Of a stretch of DNA of 50,981 nt, positions 37,406 to 41,160 are shown piece after piece. Location of the stretch: the NCBI GenBank assembly GCA_029879245.1, contig JAOUQQ010000007.1, positions 1 to 50,981 on the forward strand. Direction: 5' to 3'. The notes below the pieces were generated by a model, which made no database searches, was not told the DNA's origin, and saw only the letters and a program-made list of their open reading frames with translations. The stretch's first letter is position 1. Each line of letters starts with the position of its first letter. Made by a program: the position numbers and the translations under genes. This DNA comes from Chromatiales bacterium (GTDB lineage Bacteria; Pseudomonadota; Gammaproteobacteria; Thiohalomonadales; Thiohalomonadaceae).

Positions 37406-37427
37406 CTGTCAGGATCCTGTCATGTCA
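37406..37427. promoter_or_regulatory. Candidate enhancer sites (TGTCA repeats) for the sigma-54 activator
   Basis: CTGTCAGGATCCTGTCA at 37406-37422 with a further TGTCA at 37423-37427; another TGACA lies at 37451-37455. They lie about 50-100 nt upstream of the -24/-12 promoter, a normal enhancer distance. Closely related paired sites precede the regulator gene at 40889-40906. Confidence 0.6.
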
Positions 37428-37506
37428 CTAAGCGAGCAGTGGCATGAATATGACAGATATAGACATGAATAAGCGTATAAAATGATGATCTATATTAACT
37501 TAATAT

Positions 37507-37521
37507 TGGCATGGATTATGC
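37507..37521 (+). promoter_or_regulatory. Sigma-54 promoter 1 (sRNA)
   Basis: TGGCATGGATTATGC has GG at 37508-37509 and GC at 37520-37521, the required 12-nt register. Start predicted at about 37533. Confidence 0.75.
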
Positions 37522-37532
37522 ATGGAATTGGC

Positions 37533-37623
37533 GTGTGGTTTTCTGCGGCTGGATTGGCCGCAGGACTCCTCCCTCCACGCACTGTGGTGTTTTTAACGCG
37601 TCTCGCCGAGACGCGTTTTTTTA
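37533..37623 (+). ncRNA. Predicted sigma-54-dependent small RNA, about 90 nt
   Basis: It extends from the predicted start 12 nt after the -12 element to the end of an intrinsic terminator. It has a 7-bp stem (37543-37549 with 37557-37563), then an unpaired CTCCTCCCTCC (37566-37576) able to pair with Shine-Dalgarno sequences, and the terminator hairpin with a T-run. This layout (5' hairpin, seed, Rho-independent terminator) is that of Hfq-type trans-acting sRNAs. Qrr sRNAs of Vibrio are likewise sigma-54-driven beside an enhancer-binding protein gene. No similarity in sequence to Qrr is claimed. Confidence 0.65.
37595..37622 (+). terminator. Intrinsic terminator of the sRNA
   Basis: Perfect 10-bp stem AACGCGTCTC (37595-37604) and GAGACGCGTT (37608-37617), a GCC loop, and a T-run at 37616-37622. 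Confidence 0.9.
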
Positions 37624-37663: not shown

Positions 37664-37678
37664 TGGCATACAACTTGC
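37664..37678 (+). promoter_or_regulatory. Sigma-54 promoter 2 (exported peptide and rhodaneses)
   Basis: TGGCATACAACTTGC, with GG at 37665-37666 and GC at 37677-37678, closely matches TGGCAC-N5-TTGC. Start is near 37690, giving a leader of about 80 nt before the ATG at 37772. Confidence 0.8.
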
Positions 37679-37771
37679 CCGCTACTATTTCGGAGGCTGA
37701 GGCTTGTAATAGAGGCTCAGTGTGGCATTATCAACGCTGTTACGTTTTGAACGAACAAATGGAGGCCGTCA

Positions 37772-37951
37772 ATGGTAAAACGTATTGTACTTATGTTGTC
37801 GGTATTGATGTCTATCACATCAATATCCCTGCCGCTCTATGCTCAGGGGGAGGAAGAGCAGCAGTCCGATACCTCAACCACAACGACCAAACCAGATAAA
37901 GAGAAGGATAAAAAAGAGGCCGGTAGTGGTGGAAGTGAAGACTGCGATTAA
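37772..37951 (+). CDS. Small exported Lys/Glu/Asp-rich protein
   Basis: 59 residues, with GGAGG at 37761-37765, 6 nt before the ATG. A signal peptide (IVLMLSVLMSITSISLPLYAQ) is followed by a charged, low-complexity mature part with TTTTKPDKEKDKKEAGSGG and a single Cys in the final EDCD. No family is recognised. It is the first gene after sigma-54 promoter 2 and is followed by the rhodanese genes, so it is probably part of the same regulon. The lone C-terminal cysteine could take part in redox or sulfur transfer (inference). Confidence 0.65.
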   Translation: MVKRIVLMLSVLMSITSISLPLYAQGEEEQQSDTSTTTTKPDKEKDKKEAGSGGSEDCD

Positions 37952-38052: not shown

Positions 38053-38709
38053 ATGAAATTAATCCAGCTCGTTACATCCGTGGCGCTGATTGGCAGTATG
38101 ACACTTGGTGCTTATGGCAGCGCCAACGCTGCGGATGTCACGGTAAAAATAACCCCTAAAATGGCAGCCGCCAAAGTCAAGCATGATGGAAAGACTATCA
38201 CTGTCATGCGTAATCAGAATCAGGAAAACACCATCAACCCCGACTTTGCCAAGACCTCTCGCAAGTGCCCGCCCTTCTGCATTCGTCCCTTCAATACAGC
38301 CAAGGGAGTTGAGACCATTGGTGAACTTGAAGTTATCGAGTATGCAAAACAGATGTCAGACGGTAAGAAGGTGATGCTGGTCGATAACCGCACCCCCGAC
38401 TGGCACGCCAAAGGCACGATACCCGGTGCCGTCAATGTACCCTTTACCAGGATCAATCGTAGCAAGGGTGCCGATGACCTCTCCTTTGCCGAGGCCCTTG
38501 AGCTGTTTGGCGCTACTGAGGGCGCAAAGGGGTGGGATTTCAGCAAGGCCAAAACCCTGGTGATGTTCTGTAATGGGATGTGGTGTGGCCAGTCTCCTCT
38601 GGGTATAGAGGGTATTATGGATCTGGGTTACCCCGCAGATAAAATTAAGTGGTACCGCGGCGGCATGCAAAGCTGGGAAATCGTCGGTCTGACTACCGTA
38701 AAGCCCTAA
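38053..38709 (+). CDS. Exported rhodanese-like sulfurtransferase (copy 1)
   Basis: 218 residues with GAGGAG (38038-38043) upstream. The signal peptide cleaves near ANAAD (residue 27). The rhodanese domain has VDNRTPDWHAKGTIPGAVNVPF and an active-site loop starting at Cys173 with the form CNGMWCGQS, a second Cys being at 178. A separate CPPFC lies at 72-76. The extra cysteine in the loop is not typical of plain thiosulfate sulfurtransferases and could form a disulfide. A role in sulfane sulfur handling in the periplasm is likely. It is paralogous to the next gene. Confidence 0.88.
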   Translation: MKLIQLVTSVALIGSMTLGAYGSANAADVTVKITPKMAAAKVKHDGKTITVMRNQNQENTINPDFAKTSRKCPPFCIRPFNTAKGVETIGELEVIEYAKQMSDGKKVMLVDNRTPDWHAKGTIPGAVNVPFTRINRSKGADDLSFAEALELFGATEGAKGWDFSKAKTLVMFCNGMWCGQSPLGIEGIMDLGYPADKIKWYRGGMQSWEIVGLTTVKP

Positions 38710-38743: not shown

Positions 38744-39418
38744 ATGATGAAGAGTAATATGTTTAAGGGAATCGTTATTGCCGCAGCCGCCTCCGTTCTT
38801 GTCGCCTGCGGGGCTACGACCCCAGAAAAATCTGAGGGCGCAGATCTTGCGGTAAAAATCACTCCAAAGATGGGTAGTGCTACGGTCAGTTTGAATGGTA
38901 GTGATGTCACCATTCAGCGTAATCAGGACCAGAAAAATATGGTTAATCCTGATTTTGCCAAGACCTCACGCAAGTGTCCCCCCTTTTGTATCCGTCCTAT
39001 TTCTACGGCGAAGGGTGTCGAGACCATCGCAGAACTTGAGGTAATTGATTACATTAAACAGGTGGCTGCGGGGAAGAATGTCCTGCTTGTTGATAATCGT
39101 ACCCCAGACTGGCATGCCAAGGGCACTATCCCAGGAGCCGTTAATGTGCCGTTCACCAAGATCAACCGCAGCAAGGGTGCCGATGATGTTTCACTTGCCG
39201 AGGCACTTGAGCTATTTGGCGCCGAAGAGGCCGGTAAGGGATGGAATTTCAGCAATGCCAAGACTCTGGTGATGTTCTGTAACGGAATGTGGTGTGGCCA
39301 GTCTCCGCTGGGTATCGACGGTATCATGGACATGGGCTATCCCGCAGAGAAGATCAAGTGGTATCGCGGTGGTATGCAGGACTGGGAGATTCTAGGTCTG
39401 ACTACCGTCAAACCCTGA
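38744..39418 (+). CDS. Rhodanese-like lipoprotein (copy 2)
   Basis: 224 residues; GAGG upstream. A lipobox, LVAC, near residue 22 makes it a membrane-anchored version of copy 1. From NPDFAKTSRKCPPFC onward the two are near-identical, including DNRTPDWHAKGTIPGAVNVPF and CNGMWCGQSPLGI; the N-terminal 60 residues diverge. It lies 34 nt after copy 1 and is followed by a terminator, so both are on one mRNA. One copy is soluble and the other tethered, which suggests division of labour after duplication. Confidence 0.88.
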   Translation: MMKSNMFKGIVIAAAASVLVACGATTPEKSEGADLAVKITPKMGSATVSLNGSDVTIQRNQDQKNMVNPDFAKTSRKCPPFCIRPISTAKGVETIAELEVIDYIKQVAAGKNVLLVDNRTPDWHAKGTIPGAVNVPFTKINRSKGADDVSLAEALELFGAEEAGKGWNFSNAKTLVMFCNGMWCGQSPLGIDGIMDMGYPAEKIKWYRGGMQDWEILGLTTVKP

Positions 39419-39484: not shown

Positions 39485-40825
39485 TTAAGCAGTACGCAGT
39501 CGTTTCACATAACGATAGAGGGTGCGTTCACTGACGCCAAGTAGCATCGCTGCATTGGCCCGGTGTCCCTCACACTGCTCAAGGGCCCGCAGTACAGCCT
39601 CCTCACTCAGACGTCCATGGCGACGGCGCAGTAATCTATTATTACCGTACATGACCTCCCCAGCGGATTTAACCGTGTGACCTCCATGCGGAGTCTCTCC
39701 CTCCAGCACGATGTGCTCCGGCCTCAGCAGCTCTTCGCCATAGGCGAGGATTGCCGCACGTTCAATAATATTGCGCAGCTCCCGTACATTGCCCGGGTAG
39801 TCGTAACCGAGCAGTGCCTCGATCACCTCCGGCGAGATCGGGATAAAGCGATCACCCTCCTCCATTGTCAGCAGAAAGTGTTCAGCCAGGGCGGGAATGT
39901 CATCCGGGCGTTCACGTAGAGAGGGGACATTGACCGGAAAAGCGGAGAGGCGGTAGTAGAGATCCTGACGGAATAAACCACGATCTGACATCTCCTTAAG
40001 GTTTTTGTTGGTGGCGGCGATCACCCGCACATTGACCTTAATGTAACTGGTACCACCCAGGCGACGGATGGTGCCACTTTCCAGGGCGCGCAGAAGTTTG
40101 GTCTGCAGTGACAGCGGCAGCTCGCCAATCTCATCGATGAACAGCGTGCCGCCATCAGCCACCTCAAACAGCCCCTTTTTTATCGAAGAGGCCCCGGTAA
40201 AGGCCCCCTTCTCATGGCCAAACAGTTCACTCTCGATCAAATTCTCTCCCAGAGTCCCACAGTCAACGATGACGAAGGGCATTGCCGAGCGCGATGAATA
40301 TTGATGTATATATTCCGCCACATTCTCTTTTCCTACCCCACTTTCACCTAATAGCAGGACGCTGGTCTGGGTAGGTGCCACCCGCTGTAGCAGACTGGTC
40401 AGGCGCAACATTGGACGAGAGCGACCGATAAGGCTCATTCCCTCATCGCTGGATTTGTGTATCGGGTAGATATACTCCCCCACATAGATCACCTTGCCGT
40501 TGTCATCGAACAGCGGGGTTGAGTGGAGCTGCACGTGCTCCTCCTCACCATCGTGGTAGTGGATATGCATCACCTGAGTCGGCTGCTCTGTATCGAATAC
40601 CGTCTCCAGTGGACAGTGTTCACCGTGCTGGCTGCAGGGGGAGTCGACATGGTGGGAGACCTCATAACAAAAACGGCCAACCACCTCATCGGAACGTGCG
40701 TGTCCATAGTGGTTAAGATAGTTTCTGTTGGCCGCAATAATTCGGTAGTTGCGATCGATCACCACAAACGGATCGGGAATTATGTTGATGACCTGCTGAC
40801 AGGTCGGTAAACAGGGATCTGACAT
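39485..40825 (-). CDS. PAS-domain sigma-54 enhancer-binding regulator
   Basis: 446 residues from the ATG at 40825 (GAGG 5 nt upstream; a GTG two codons earlier is possible). An N-terminal PAS domain (about 10-115) has a cysteine/histidine cluster (Cys53, Cys64, His67, His70, Cys71). The AAA+ domain has Walker A GESGVGKE (160-167), the sigma-54 contact loop GAFTGA (207-212) and Walker B IDEIGEL (to 236). A Fis-type HTH ends the protein (AAMLLGVSERTLYRYVKRL). There is no receiver domain, so the PAS domain is the sensor; the Cys/His cluster suggests redox, metal or sulfur sensing (inference). It probably activates the two nearby sigma-54 promoters and its own. Confidence 0.93.
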   Translation of the reverse strand: MSDPCLPTCQQVINIIPDPFVVIDRNYRIIAANRNYLNHYGHARSDEVVGRFCYEVSHHVDSPCSQHGEHCPLETVFDTEQPTQVMHIHYHDGEEEHVQLHSTPLFDDNGKVIYVGEYIYPIHKSSDEGMSLIGRSRPMLRLTSLLQRVAPTQTSVLLLGESGVGKENVAEYIHQYSSRSAMPFVIVDCGTLGENLIESELFGHEKGAFTGASSIKKGLFEVADGGTLFIDEIGELPLSLQTKLLRALESGTIRRLGGTSYIKVNVRVIAATNKNLKEMSDRGLFRQDLYYRLSAFPVNVPSLRERPDDIPALAEHFLLTMEEGDRFIPISPEVIEALLGYDYPGNVRELRNIIERAAILAYGEELLRPEHIVLEGETPHGGHTVKSAGEVMYGNNRLLRRRHGRLSEEAVLRALEQCEGHRANAAMLLGVSERTLYRYVKRLRTA

Positions 40826-40888
40826 GGGCACCTCAAAAGAGAGCAGGAGAGACTATGACATGTCGTTTACTGTCATTTTATTCTAATA

Positions 40889-40906
40889 CTGACAGATCCC
40901 TGTCAG
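40889..40906. promoter_or_regulatory. Paired TGACA/TGTCA site in front of the regulator gene
   Basis: CTGACAGATCCCTGTCAG at 40889-40906 is a near-palindrome. ATGACATGTC at 40856-40865 and TGTCAT at 40871-40876 lie closer to the start codon. They resemble the sites at 37406-37427 and suggest autoregulation. Confidence 0.55.
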
Positions 40907-40920
40907 ATTTCATAGCCAGG

Positions 40921-41160
40921 CTATTGACCCTCCTGCCCCCCTTTCTTCACTAACACTAGCCGAATCACCTTTGCCACAAGCAGCAACGACGGCGTGCCGT
41001 GCATCAGCAGATCGAAGATATCGATCGGCCTCTGCAGTGTCCCCTCAGTGAGCATTCTCAGCTTCTCAACCAGATGCGGTTCCGGCGAGAAGGGGGCCAG
41101 ACCGAGTCCGATGGCGATTAGTAGCAGGTGTGGTAGGGGAATTCTGTCGAGCCAGCTCAT
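40921..41160 (-). CDS. Small RND-associated membrane protein
   Basis: 79 residues. LPHLLLIAIGLGLAPFSPEPHLVEKLRML followed by RPIDIFDLLMHGTP is a conserved short protein often labelled 'RND transporter' in gammaproteobacteria. One membrane helix near the N-terminus and one hydrophobic C-terminal stretch are seen. GAGAG precedes the ATG. It is divergent from mfd. The real function is not known to me. Confidence 0.75.
   Translation of the reverse strand: MSWLDRIPLPHLLLIAIGLGLAPFSPEPHLVEKLRMLTEGTLQRPIDIFDLLMHGTPSLLLVAKVIRLVLVKKGGQEGQ

Follow-up and report, generated by a model that had tools for sequence, protein, structure and literature searches.

Does the short interval beside a gene for a sigma-54-dependent activator encode a small RNA (sRNA) of its own and, if so, is the neighboring protein likely to switch it on? 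The interval lies in a stretch of 50,981 nt, the whole of which is here called the window. A first-pass annotation, made from the letters alone, had proposed that a -24/-12 promoter is followed by a GC stem and a T-run with no credible gene between them, and that the predicted transcript of about 90 nt has a 5' hairpin, an exposed segment and a Rho-independent end. Each of these claims held: the sequence is as described, no reading frame is conserved across the transcript (the 5' half differs between genomes in both sequence and length), and the fold prediction contains all three elements. The elements of the locus are as follows.

37407..37466 (+): putative upstream activating sequences of the sRNA (TGTCA at 37407-37411, TGTCATGTCA at 37418-37427, TGACA at 37451-37455)
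37507..37522 (+): sigma-54 (-24/-12) promoter of the sRNA, TGGCATGGATTATGCA, score 11.0 of 11.6; TGGCA and GC invariant in 11 of 11 orthologues
37533..37622 (+): predicted sRNA transcript, about 90 nt; fold z = -4.1; matched by the covariance model in 11 genomes
37541..37565 (+): 5' hairpin of the sRNA, 10-bp stem; sequence variable, hairpin kept in every orthologue
37566..37576 (+): C-rich segment CTCCTCCCTCC resembling an anti-Shine-Dalgarno sequence, predicted seed; C-rich in 11 of 11 orthologues
37580..37593 (+): near-invariant block CACTGTGGTGTTTT; CTGTGGTG identical in all 11 sequences of the alignment
37595..37622 (+): intrinsic terminator of the sRNA, 10-bp stem and T-run; changes on both sides at 4 of 7 pairs across orthologues

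The promoter (TGGCATG-GATT-ATGC, 37507-37521) has GG at 37508-37509 and GC at 37520-37521, which is the correct 12-nt spacing, and from its position the start of transcription is predicted at 37533. The terminator – AACGCGTCTCGCCGAGACGCGTT plus T-run – begins at 37595, 62 nt after the predicted start. Folding of the 89-nt transcript gives -39.3 kcal/mol (z-score as listed), and none of 200 shuffled sequences was as low. CTCCTCCCTCC is mostly unpaired in the predicted fold, while the neighboring CCAC has alternative pairings, with GUGG at the 5' end or with a GUGG downstream. Only two sigma-54 sites in the 51-kb window reach a score of 10.8 (of 11.6): the one at 37507 and a second at 37664-37679, which the first-pass annotation had missed. 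In 2.4 Mb of the complete genome of a relative, G008, there are 65 comparable sites, of which a single one has a terminator in range, and that one is the sRNA orthologue: the pairing of promoter and terminator is therefore no coincidence of pattern matching.

The first-pass annotation had suggested that an Rfam search and an alignment across related genomes would be informative. Both were carried out: cmscan of the window and of seven orthologous loci gave no Rfam match of any kind at the sRNA, and the succession of promoter, RNA and terminator is kept in 11 genomes. A DNA search gave weak matches in relatives, several of them beside an orthologue of the adjacent enhancer-binding protein (EBP) gene; when these loci were screened for a sigma-54 site followed by a terminator, the unit emerged in seven relatives, and searching with a covariance model built on its 3' half extended the set to 11 of the 20 family genomes, representing seven genera. 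The order of parts is conserved – sigma-54 promoter, sequence-variable 5' hairpin, C-rich stretch, near-invariant CACUGUGGUGU block, terminator – and CUGUGGUG within the block is identical in all members, whereas the 5' hairpins of different genera are unrelated in sequence. Three genomes (G010, G002 and G006) matched the covariance model though not used in building it, and have sigma-54 promoters at the expected distance. Pairing in the 3' half is kept at 95%, with covariation above that of all 500 shuffles (the alignment was, however, fitted to the model). Covarying conserved stems had been named in advance as support; covariance support in the 3' half is confined to the terminator. No formal count is given for the 5' hairpin because MAFFT alignments misregister this variable element.

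The genomic setting of the sRNA is not constant. In six genomes (G006, G008, G014, G017, G018 and G019) it is convergent with the EBP gene – fisR in what follows – and points toward it from downstream; in the window and in G007, rhodanese genes lie between the two, downstream of the sRNA and on its strand; and in G001, G002 and G010 the sRNA is on another contig, unlinked from fisR and without a conserved downstream gene. Since three loci are unlinked, conservation of the sRNA is not driven by its context. Presence in 11 of 20 genomes, the unlinked loci and absence from Rfam together argue for excluding a leader, an attenuator or chance. The claim that this is a sigma-54-dependent sRNA is thus supported by co-conservation of its parts, which is shown by sequence and comparison; that the unit is transcribed is inferred.

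The sRNA tracks the EBP: it was found in 11 of the 13 family genomes that have a FisR-like EBP and in none of the seven without (Fisher p = 0.0005, uncorrected for shared ancestry). The two family genomes with the EBP but without a detected sRNA (G003 and G015) are both fragmented, and the sRNA was likewise undetected in three more distant carriers of the EBP (G053, G033 and G045). Beyond the family a single credible, weak relative was found, in G125. A scan of named genomes with TCCACACTGTGGTGTTTT returned six MAG loci (apparently genomes already searched) plus three actinobacterial matches, about the level expected by chance. Two further covariance-model matches were discarded, one in G105 that overlaps a tRNA-like sequence and a second in G008 (at 355549) that has no suitable sigma-54 promoter.

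The G125 RNA (L057:1420-1570), from another family, is a divergent C-rich RNA with two CTCCTCC segments and a terminator, matching the model at 29 bits. A TGACATGAC...TTGACATG element is present, the promoter is of a sigma-70-like type, and some 4 kb away a full-length FisR-like EBP (50% identical) is encoded.

Beyond the sRNA terminator the window contains the following.

37664..37679 (+): second sigma-54 promoter, TGGCATACAACTTGCC, for the small-ORF and rhodanese genes; just after the sRNA terminator
37772..37951 (+): small exported protein, 59 aa, ending EDCD (reading frame)
38053..38709 (+): exported rhodanese-domain protein 1 (PF00581, E = 6e-14)
38744..39418 (+): exported rhodanese-domain protein 2, a paralogue (PF00581, E = 3e-12)
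39485..40831 (-): FisR-like sigma-54 activator with PAS, AAA+ and Fis-type HTH domains and a cysteine triad (PF08448, PF00158, PF02954)
40856..40905 (-): four TGWCA elements immediately 5' of the FisR-like gene, a putative operator cluster with the motif also seen in the sRNA upstream activating sequences

An equivalent promoter precedes the rhodanese genes of G007 (L018:3492), where a short protein ending ECD occupies the same place as the 59-aa protein (L018:3622-3792). With its C-terminal cysteine, and encoded upstream of two rhodaneses, the exported 59-aa protein may be a sulfur carrier, an inference that rests on sequence alone.

What does the EBP sense? FisR is a sigma-54 activator that responds to sulfide and sulfane sulfur, in Cupriavidus through three conserved cysteines (PMC9774590); the Acinetobacter FisR protein lacks these three (PMC7315123). 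The cysteines of the founding FisR protein are numbered C53, C64 and C71. Every orthologue of the EBP has a C-x10-C-x6-C triad, and a homologue in Cupriavidus metallidurans (43% identical) has the same spacing and lies beside what we take to be genes for a persulfide dioxygenase (PDO) and a sulfide:quinone oxidoreductase (SQR) (read from the sequences, not from a family scan). These features are shown by sequence and comparison. Because the PAS-AAA-HTH layout and the triad both recur in the Cupriavidus homologue beside PDO and SQR, the EBP is likely to be a sulfane-sulfur sensor of the FisR type, an assignment inferred from sequence; activation by sulfane sulfur is itself inferred. It does not qualify as LuxO: the NCBIfam LuxO model scores 258 bits against a cut-off of 800 and matches only from the AAA region onward, and the N-terminus is a PAS domain, not a receiver. 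In eight genomes (G002, G007, G008, G014, G017, G018, G019 and G053) an SQR-like gene with its own sigma-54 promoter adjoins fisR; the window has no SQR beside the EBP gene, only the rhodaneses. A 79-aa hydrophobic protein is encoded upstream of fisR in the window (40921-41160, minus strand); in G053 and G017 homologues precede the SQR-like gene, suggesting a loss of SQR at this position in the window's genome.

Sensor and sRNA are linked by a shared motif. Repeats of TGWCA, in many cases doubled to TGWCATGWCA, precede each of the 11 sRNA promoters, mostly by 55-110 nt: 48 copies in total against 4.8 in shuffled sequences (maximum 13), an excess of about tenfold. In the 51-kb window TGWCATGWCA occurs only at 37418. 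Each of 14 genomes, two of them outside the family, has a cluster of the same element immediately 5' of fisR (70 copies against 8.7 expected, maximum 17), from which autoregulation is implied. Among 447 sigma-54-like sites in 2.4 Mb of G008 the operator cluster accompanies just two, the sRNA and the operon for the flavocytochrome-c sulfide dehydrogenase (FCSD), the fcc operon (napC-like, ankyrin, cytochrome c, fccB and cytochrome c genes). The fcc operons of G001, G014, G017 and G018 have the same operator-bearing sigma-54 promoter, and family genomes without FisR lack it, with the exception of G012, in which the fcc operator is present and FisR undetected (its genus-mate G003 has FisR). No other sigma-54 promoter seen here has the operator as consistently as that of the sRNA. 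As an observation on the fcc operon itself, in the G008 copy (C1:917878-922534, minus strand; L179) the FCSD subunits are preceded by a tetrahaem cytochrome of the NapC type and by a protein with ankyrin repeats.

One class of promoter does not fit. The SQR-like promoters beside fisR are near-consensus sigma-54 sites, yet no recognizable operator lies within 260 nt of them (L018, L020-L025, L027), and on this account FisR was at first disfavored as the activator. The sharing of the operator by sRNA and fcc in G008, together with its presence at fisR in all 14 genomes, settles that doubt. The distribution of the motif, which is shown by comparison, is most simply explained by a regulator that uses one operator at its own and at its target promoters, although this is inferred by comparison and there are no binding data. 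We consider it very likely that the adjacent FisR-like EBP activates the sRNA, an inference from comparison, as binding by FisR has not been shown. The first-pass annotation had placed the sRNA beside its probable activator and guessed at control of sulfur or redox genes. The former is supported by the common operator and by co-occurrence; for the latter the sulfur link is supported by the FisR-like triad, the SQR neighbors in relatives and the fcc operator.

Targets were sought by scanning G008, with some 2,200 roughly called gene starts. The most stable duplex, at -41.0 kcal/mol with the runner-up at -35.8 (mean of the distribution -17.7, sd 4.9), is predicted at the start of a gene for a FadL/TodX-like outer-membrane protein (PF03349). 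This duplex comprises 17 contiguous pairs including one G-U, covers the Shine-Dalgarno sequence and uses the equivalent of the C-rich segment. The orthologue in G014 keeps 15 of the 17 positions in the same place (188154-188170, with the gene starting at 188174). The site was not seen in the orthologues of G017, G018, G001 and G007, and no close FadL orthologue was found in G000, G006 and G010 or in the window's own genome: FadL is thus not a universal target, since more distant orthologues lack the site and some genomes lack a close orthologue. The FadL-like porin mRNA is the strongest predicted target, conserved in only two genomes. Separately, a dispersed repeat of the G008 chromosome (gtcgcgcagcccagggaggggcgggagcgacctgaaaagtccaggATGGACTTATTCAGACCTTCC; C1, for example at 358551, 781377, 2296203, 558918, 226135 and 108791) lies partly in the fadL-like leader, and its G-rich stretch could pair with the sRNA.

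Because strong ribosome-binding sites can base-pair with the C-rich segment, repression by occlusion of those sites is the likely mode of action, direction of control and targets both being inferred. RpoN and Hfq are encoded in G008, and the sRNA meets the features of an Hfq-type sRNA (intergenic position, own promoter, intrinsic terminator with U-tail, single-stranded seed); dependence on Hfq is likewise probable, its use being inferred.

Our main reading, to which we assign a probability of roughly 0.8 in the absence of any experiment, is of a trans-acting sRNA of about 90 nt that is activated by FisR and sigma-54, probably depends on Hfq and blocks ribosome-binding sites. Sulfane sulfur – polysulfide or persulfide from sulfide oxidation – would modify the PAS-domain cysteines of the FisR-like protein, which, acting on the TGWCATGWCA repeats, would activate the sRNA as well as the fcc sulfide-dehydrogenase operon of several relatives. 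The sole promoter of the sRNA would be sigma-54 dependent and switched on by this adjacent EBP. The sRNA, probably with Hfq, would then use its exposed C-rich stretch to pair with ribosome-binding sites rich in G, repressing the mRNAs, the leading candidate in one genus being that of the FadL/TodX-like protein. A bolder version, which is less likely than not, makes this the first sRNA of a sulfane-sulfur (FisR) regulon and a new RNA family, by which sulfide-oxidizing Gammaproteobacteria would link the polysulfide level inside the cell to translational repression of envelope proteins, FadL-type channels for hydrophobic compounds among them, with the G125 RNA (L057:1501-1558) a distant branch whose promoter type has switched.

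Four alternatives need to be considered. The first accepts a real sigma-54 sRNA but has it activated by another EBP – of the GlrR/QseF type, or a second PAS paralogue – with fisR a mere neighbor. For it speak the three sRNA loci unlinked from fisR, the SQR-like promoters beside fisR that lack the operator, and the fcc operator of G012 without a detected FisR; against it stands the operator immediately upstream of fisR in every one of the 14 genomes, including the two from outside the family. We regard it as unlikely. As to specific candidates, the GlrR/QseF operator TGTCN10GACA (PMC8745638) is absent from all 11 sRNA upstream regions, and the second PAS-EBP paralogue is also found in G011, G013 and G016, all without the sRNA.

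A second alternative, also improbable, is that the sRNA binds a protein and pairs with no mRNA, either as a CsrA/RsmA sponge or through another RNA-binding protein that recognizes the invariant CUGUGGUGU block. In its favor, CUGUGGUG is better conserved than the C-rich segment, and several members have GGA triplets in or near the 5' hairpin. There are, however, only one to three such triplets per RNA and their placement is inconsistent; moreover, Hfq-dependent pairing sRNAs typically have a single-stranded C-rich stretch and then a terminator with a U-tail, as here.

A third holds that the sRNA is the 5' leader or attenuator of the small-ORF and rhodanese genes. In the window and in G007 the rhodanese genes do follow it on its strand, but these have their own sigma-54 promoter (37664) past the terminator, and the sRNA is convergent with fisR in six genomes and elsewhere altogether in G001, G002 and G010: comparison largely refutes this view, which is very unlikely. 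Chance juxtaposition of a promoter and a functionless hairpin, which one genome alone could not have ruled out, is all but excluded by conservation in 11 genomes, by the single site of 65 in 2.4 Mb and by the roughly tenfold excess of the operator over shuffles.

Returning to the proposed FisR-activated sRNA, its interest lies in what it would add. Few sigma-54-dependent sRNAs are on record (the Qrr, GlmY/GlmZ and CrcZ types), and none tied to sulfide or polysulfide sensing was found in the literature searched. If the reading is true, FisR-type sensors, known for inducing detoxification enzymes, also command a gene-silencing RNA, and the repression of genes in sulfide-oxidizing bacteria by a purely activating regulator would be explained. 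Conservation of the unit suggests that this group of bacteria, which have sulfide-oxidation genes, respond to sulfide not only with enzymes but also with a regulatory RNA; RNA, operator and sensor make a compact regulon.

How does this system compare with those already known? The Qrr RNAs of the Vibrio LuxO-Qrr circuit are short, Hfq-dependent sigma-54 sRNAs with hairpins and a Rho-independent end, encoded beside an EBP gene. The sRNA described here is similar in its sigma-54 promoter (37507), adjacent EBP gene (39485-40831), hairpins and Rho-independent end; it differs in having no Rfam Qrr match, in an activator with a PAS domain and cysteines where LuxO has a phosphorylated receiver, and in a predicted regulon of sulfide oxidation rather than quorum sensing. 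The first-pass annotation had called the two analogous but unrelated, and the lack of a Qrr match and an EBP that is not LuxO support this.

GlmY and GlmZ of the Enterobacteriaceae have a sigma-54 promoter, upstream activator sites and a gene near the operon of their activator (PMC8745638, PMC6075780). The present sRNA likewise has a sigma-54 promoter, putative upstream activator sites and a gene near its presumed activator, but it has no Rfam match, lacks TGTCN10GACA, and differs in length and signal. The CcsR or 'cuckoo' sRNAs of Alphaproteobacteria combine an exposed anti-Shine-Dalgarno sequence of the CCUCC type with a terminator hairpin. An exposed C-rich segment of this kind and a terminator hairpin are found here too, in a single-copy, gammaproteobacterial sRNA without an Rfam match, whose promoter is of the sigma-54 and not the RpoH type.

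In the FisR regulons of Cupriavidus pinatubonensis and Acinetobacter baumannii a sigma-54 activator responding to sulfide and sulfane sulfur turns on sulfide oxidation genes (PMC7315123, PMC9774590, PMC12170894); no sRNA was found in the accessible literature on these two. The EBP has the PAS-AAA-HTH architecture too, its cysteine spacing and PDO/SQR neighbors are found with the Cupriavidus metallidurans homologue, and in relatives it is linked to SQR-like genes with sigma-54 promoters. Set against these systems, the sRNA is likely to represent a sigma-54 sRNA family of its own, previously unlisted and not a relative of Qrr, that forms part of a sulfur-sensing regulon of the FisR type.
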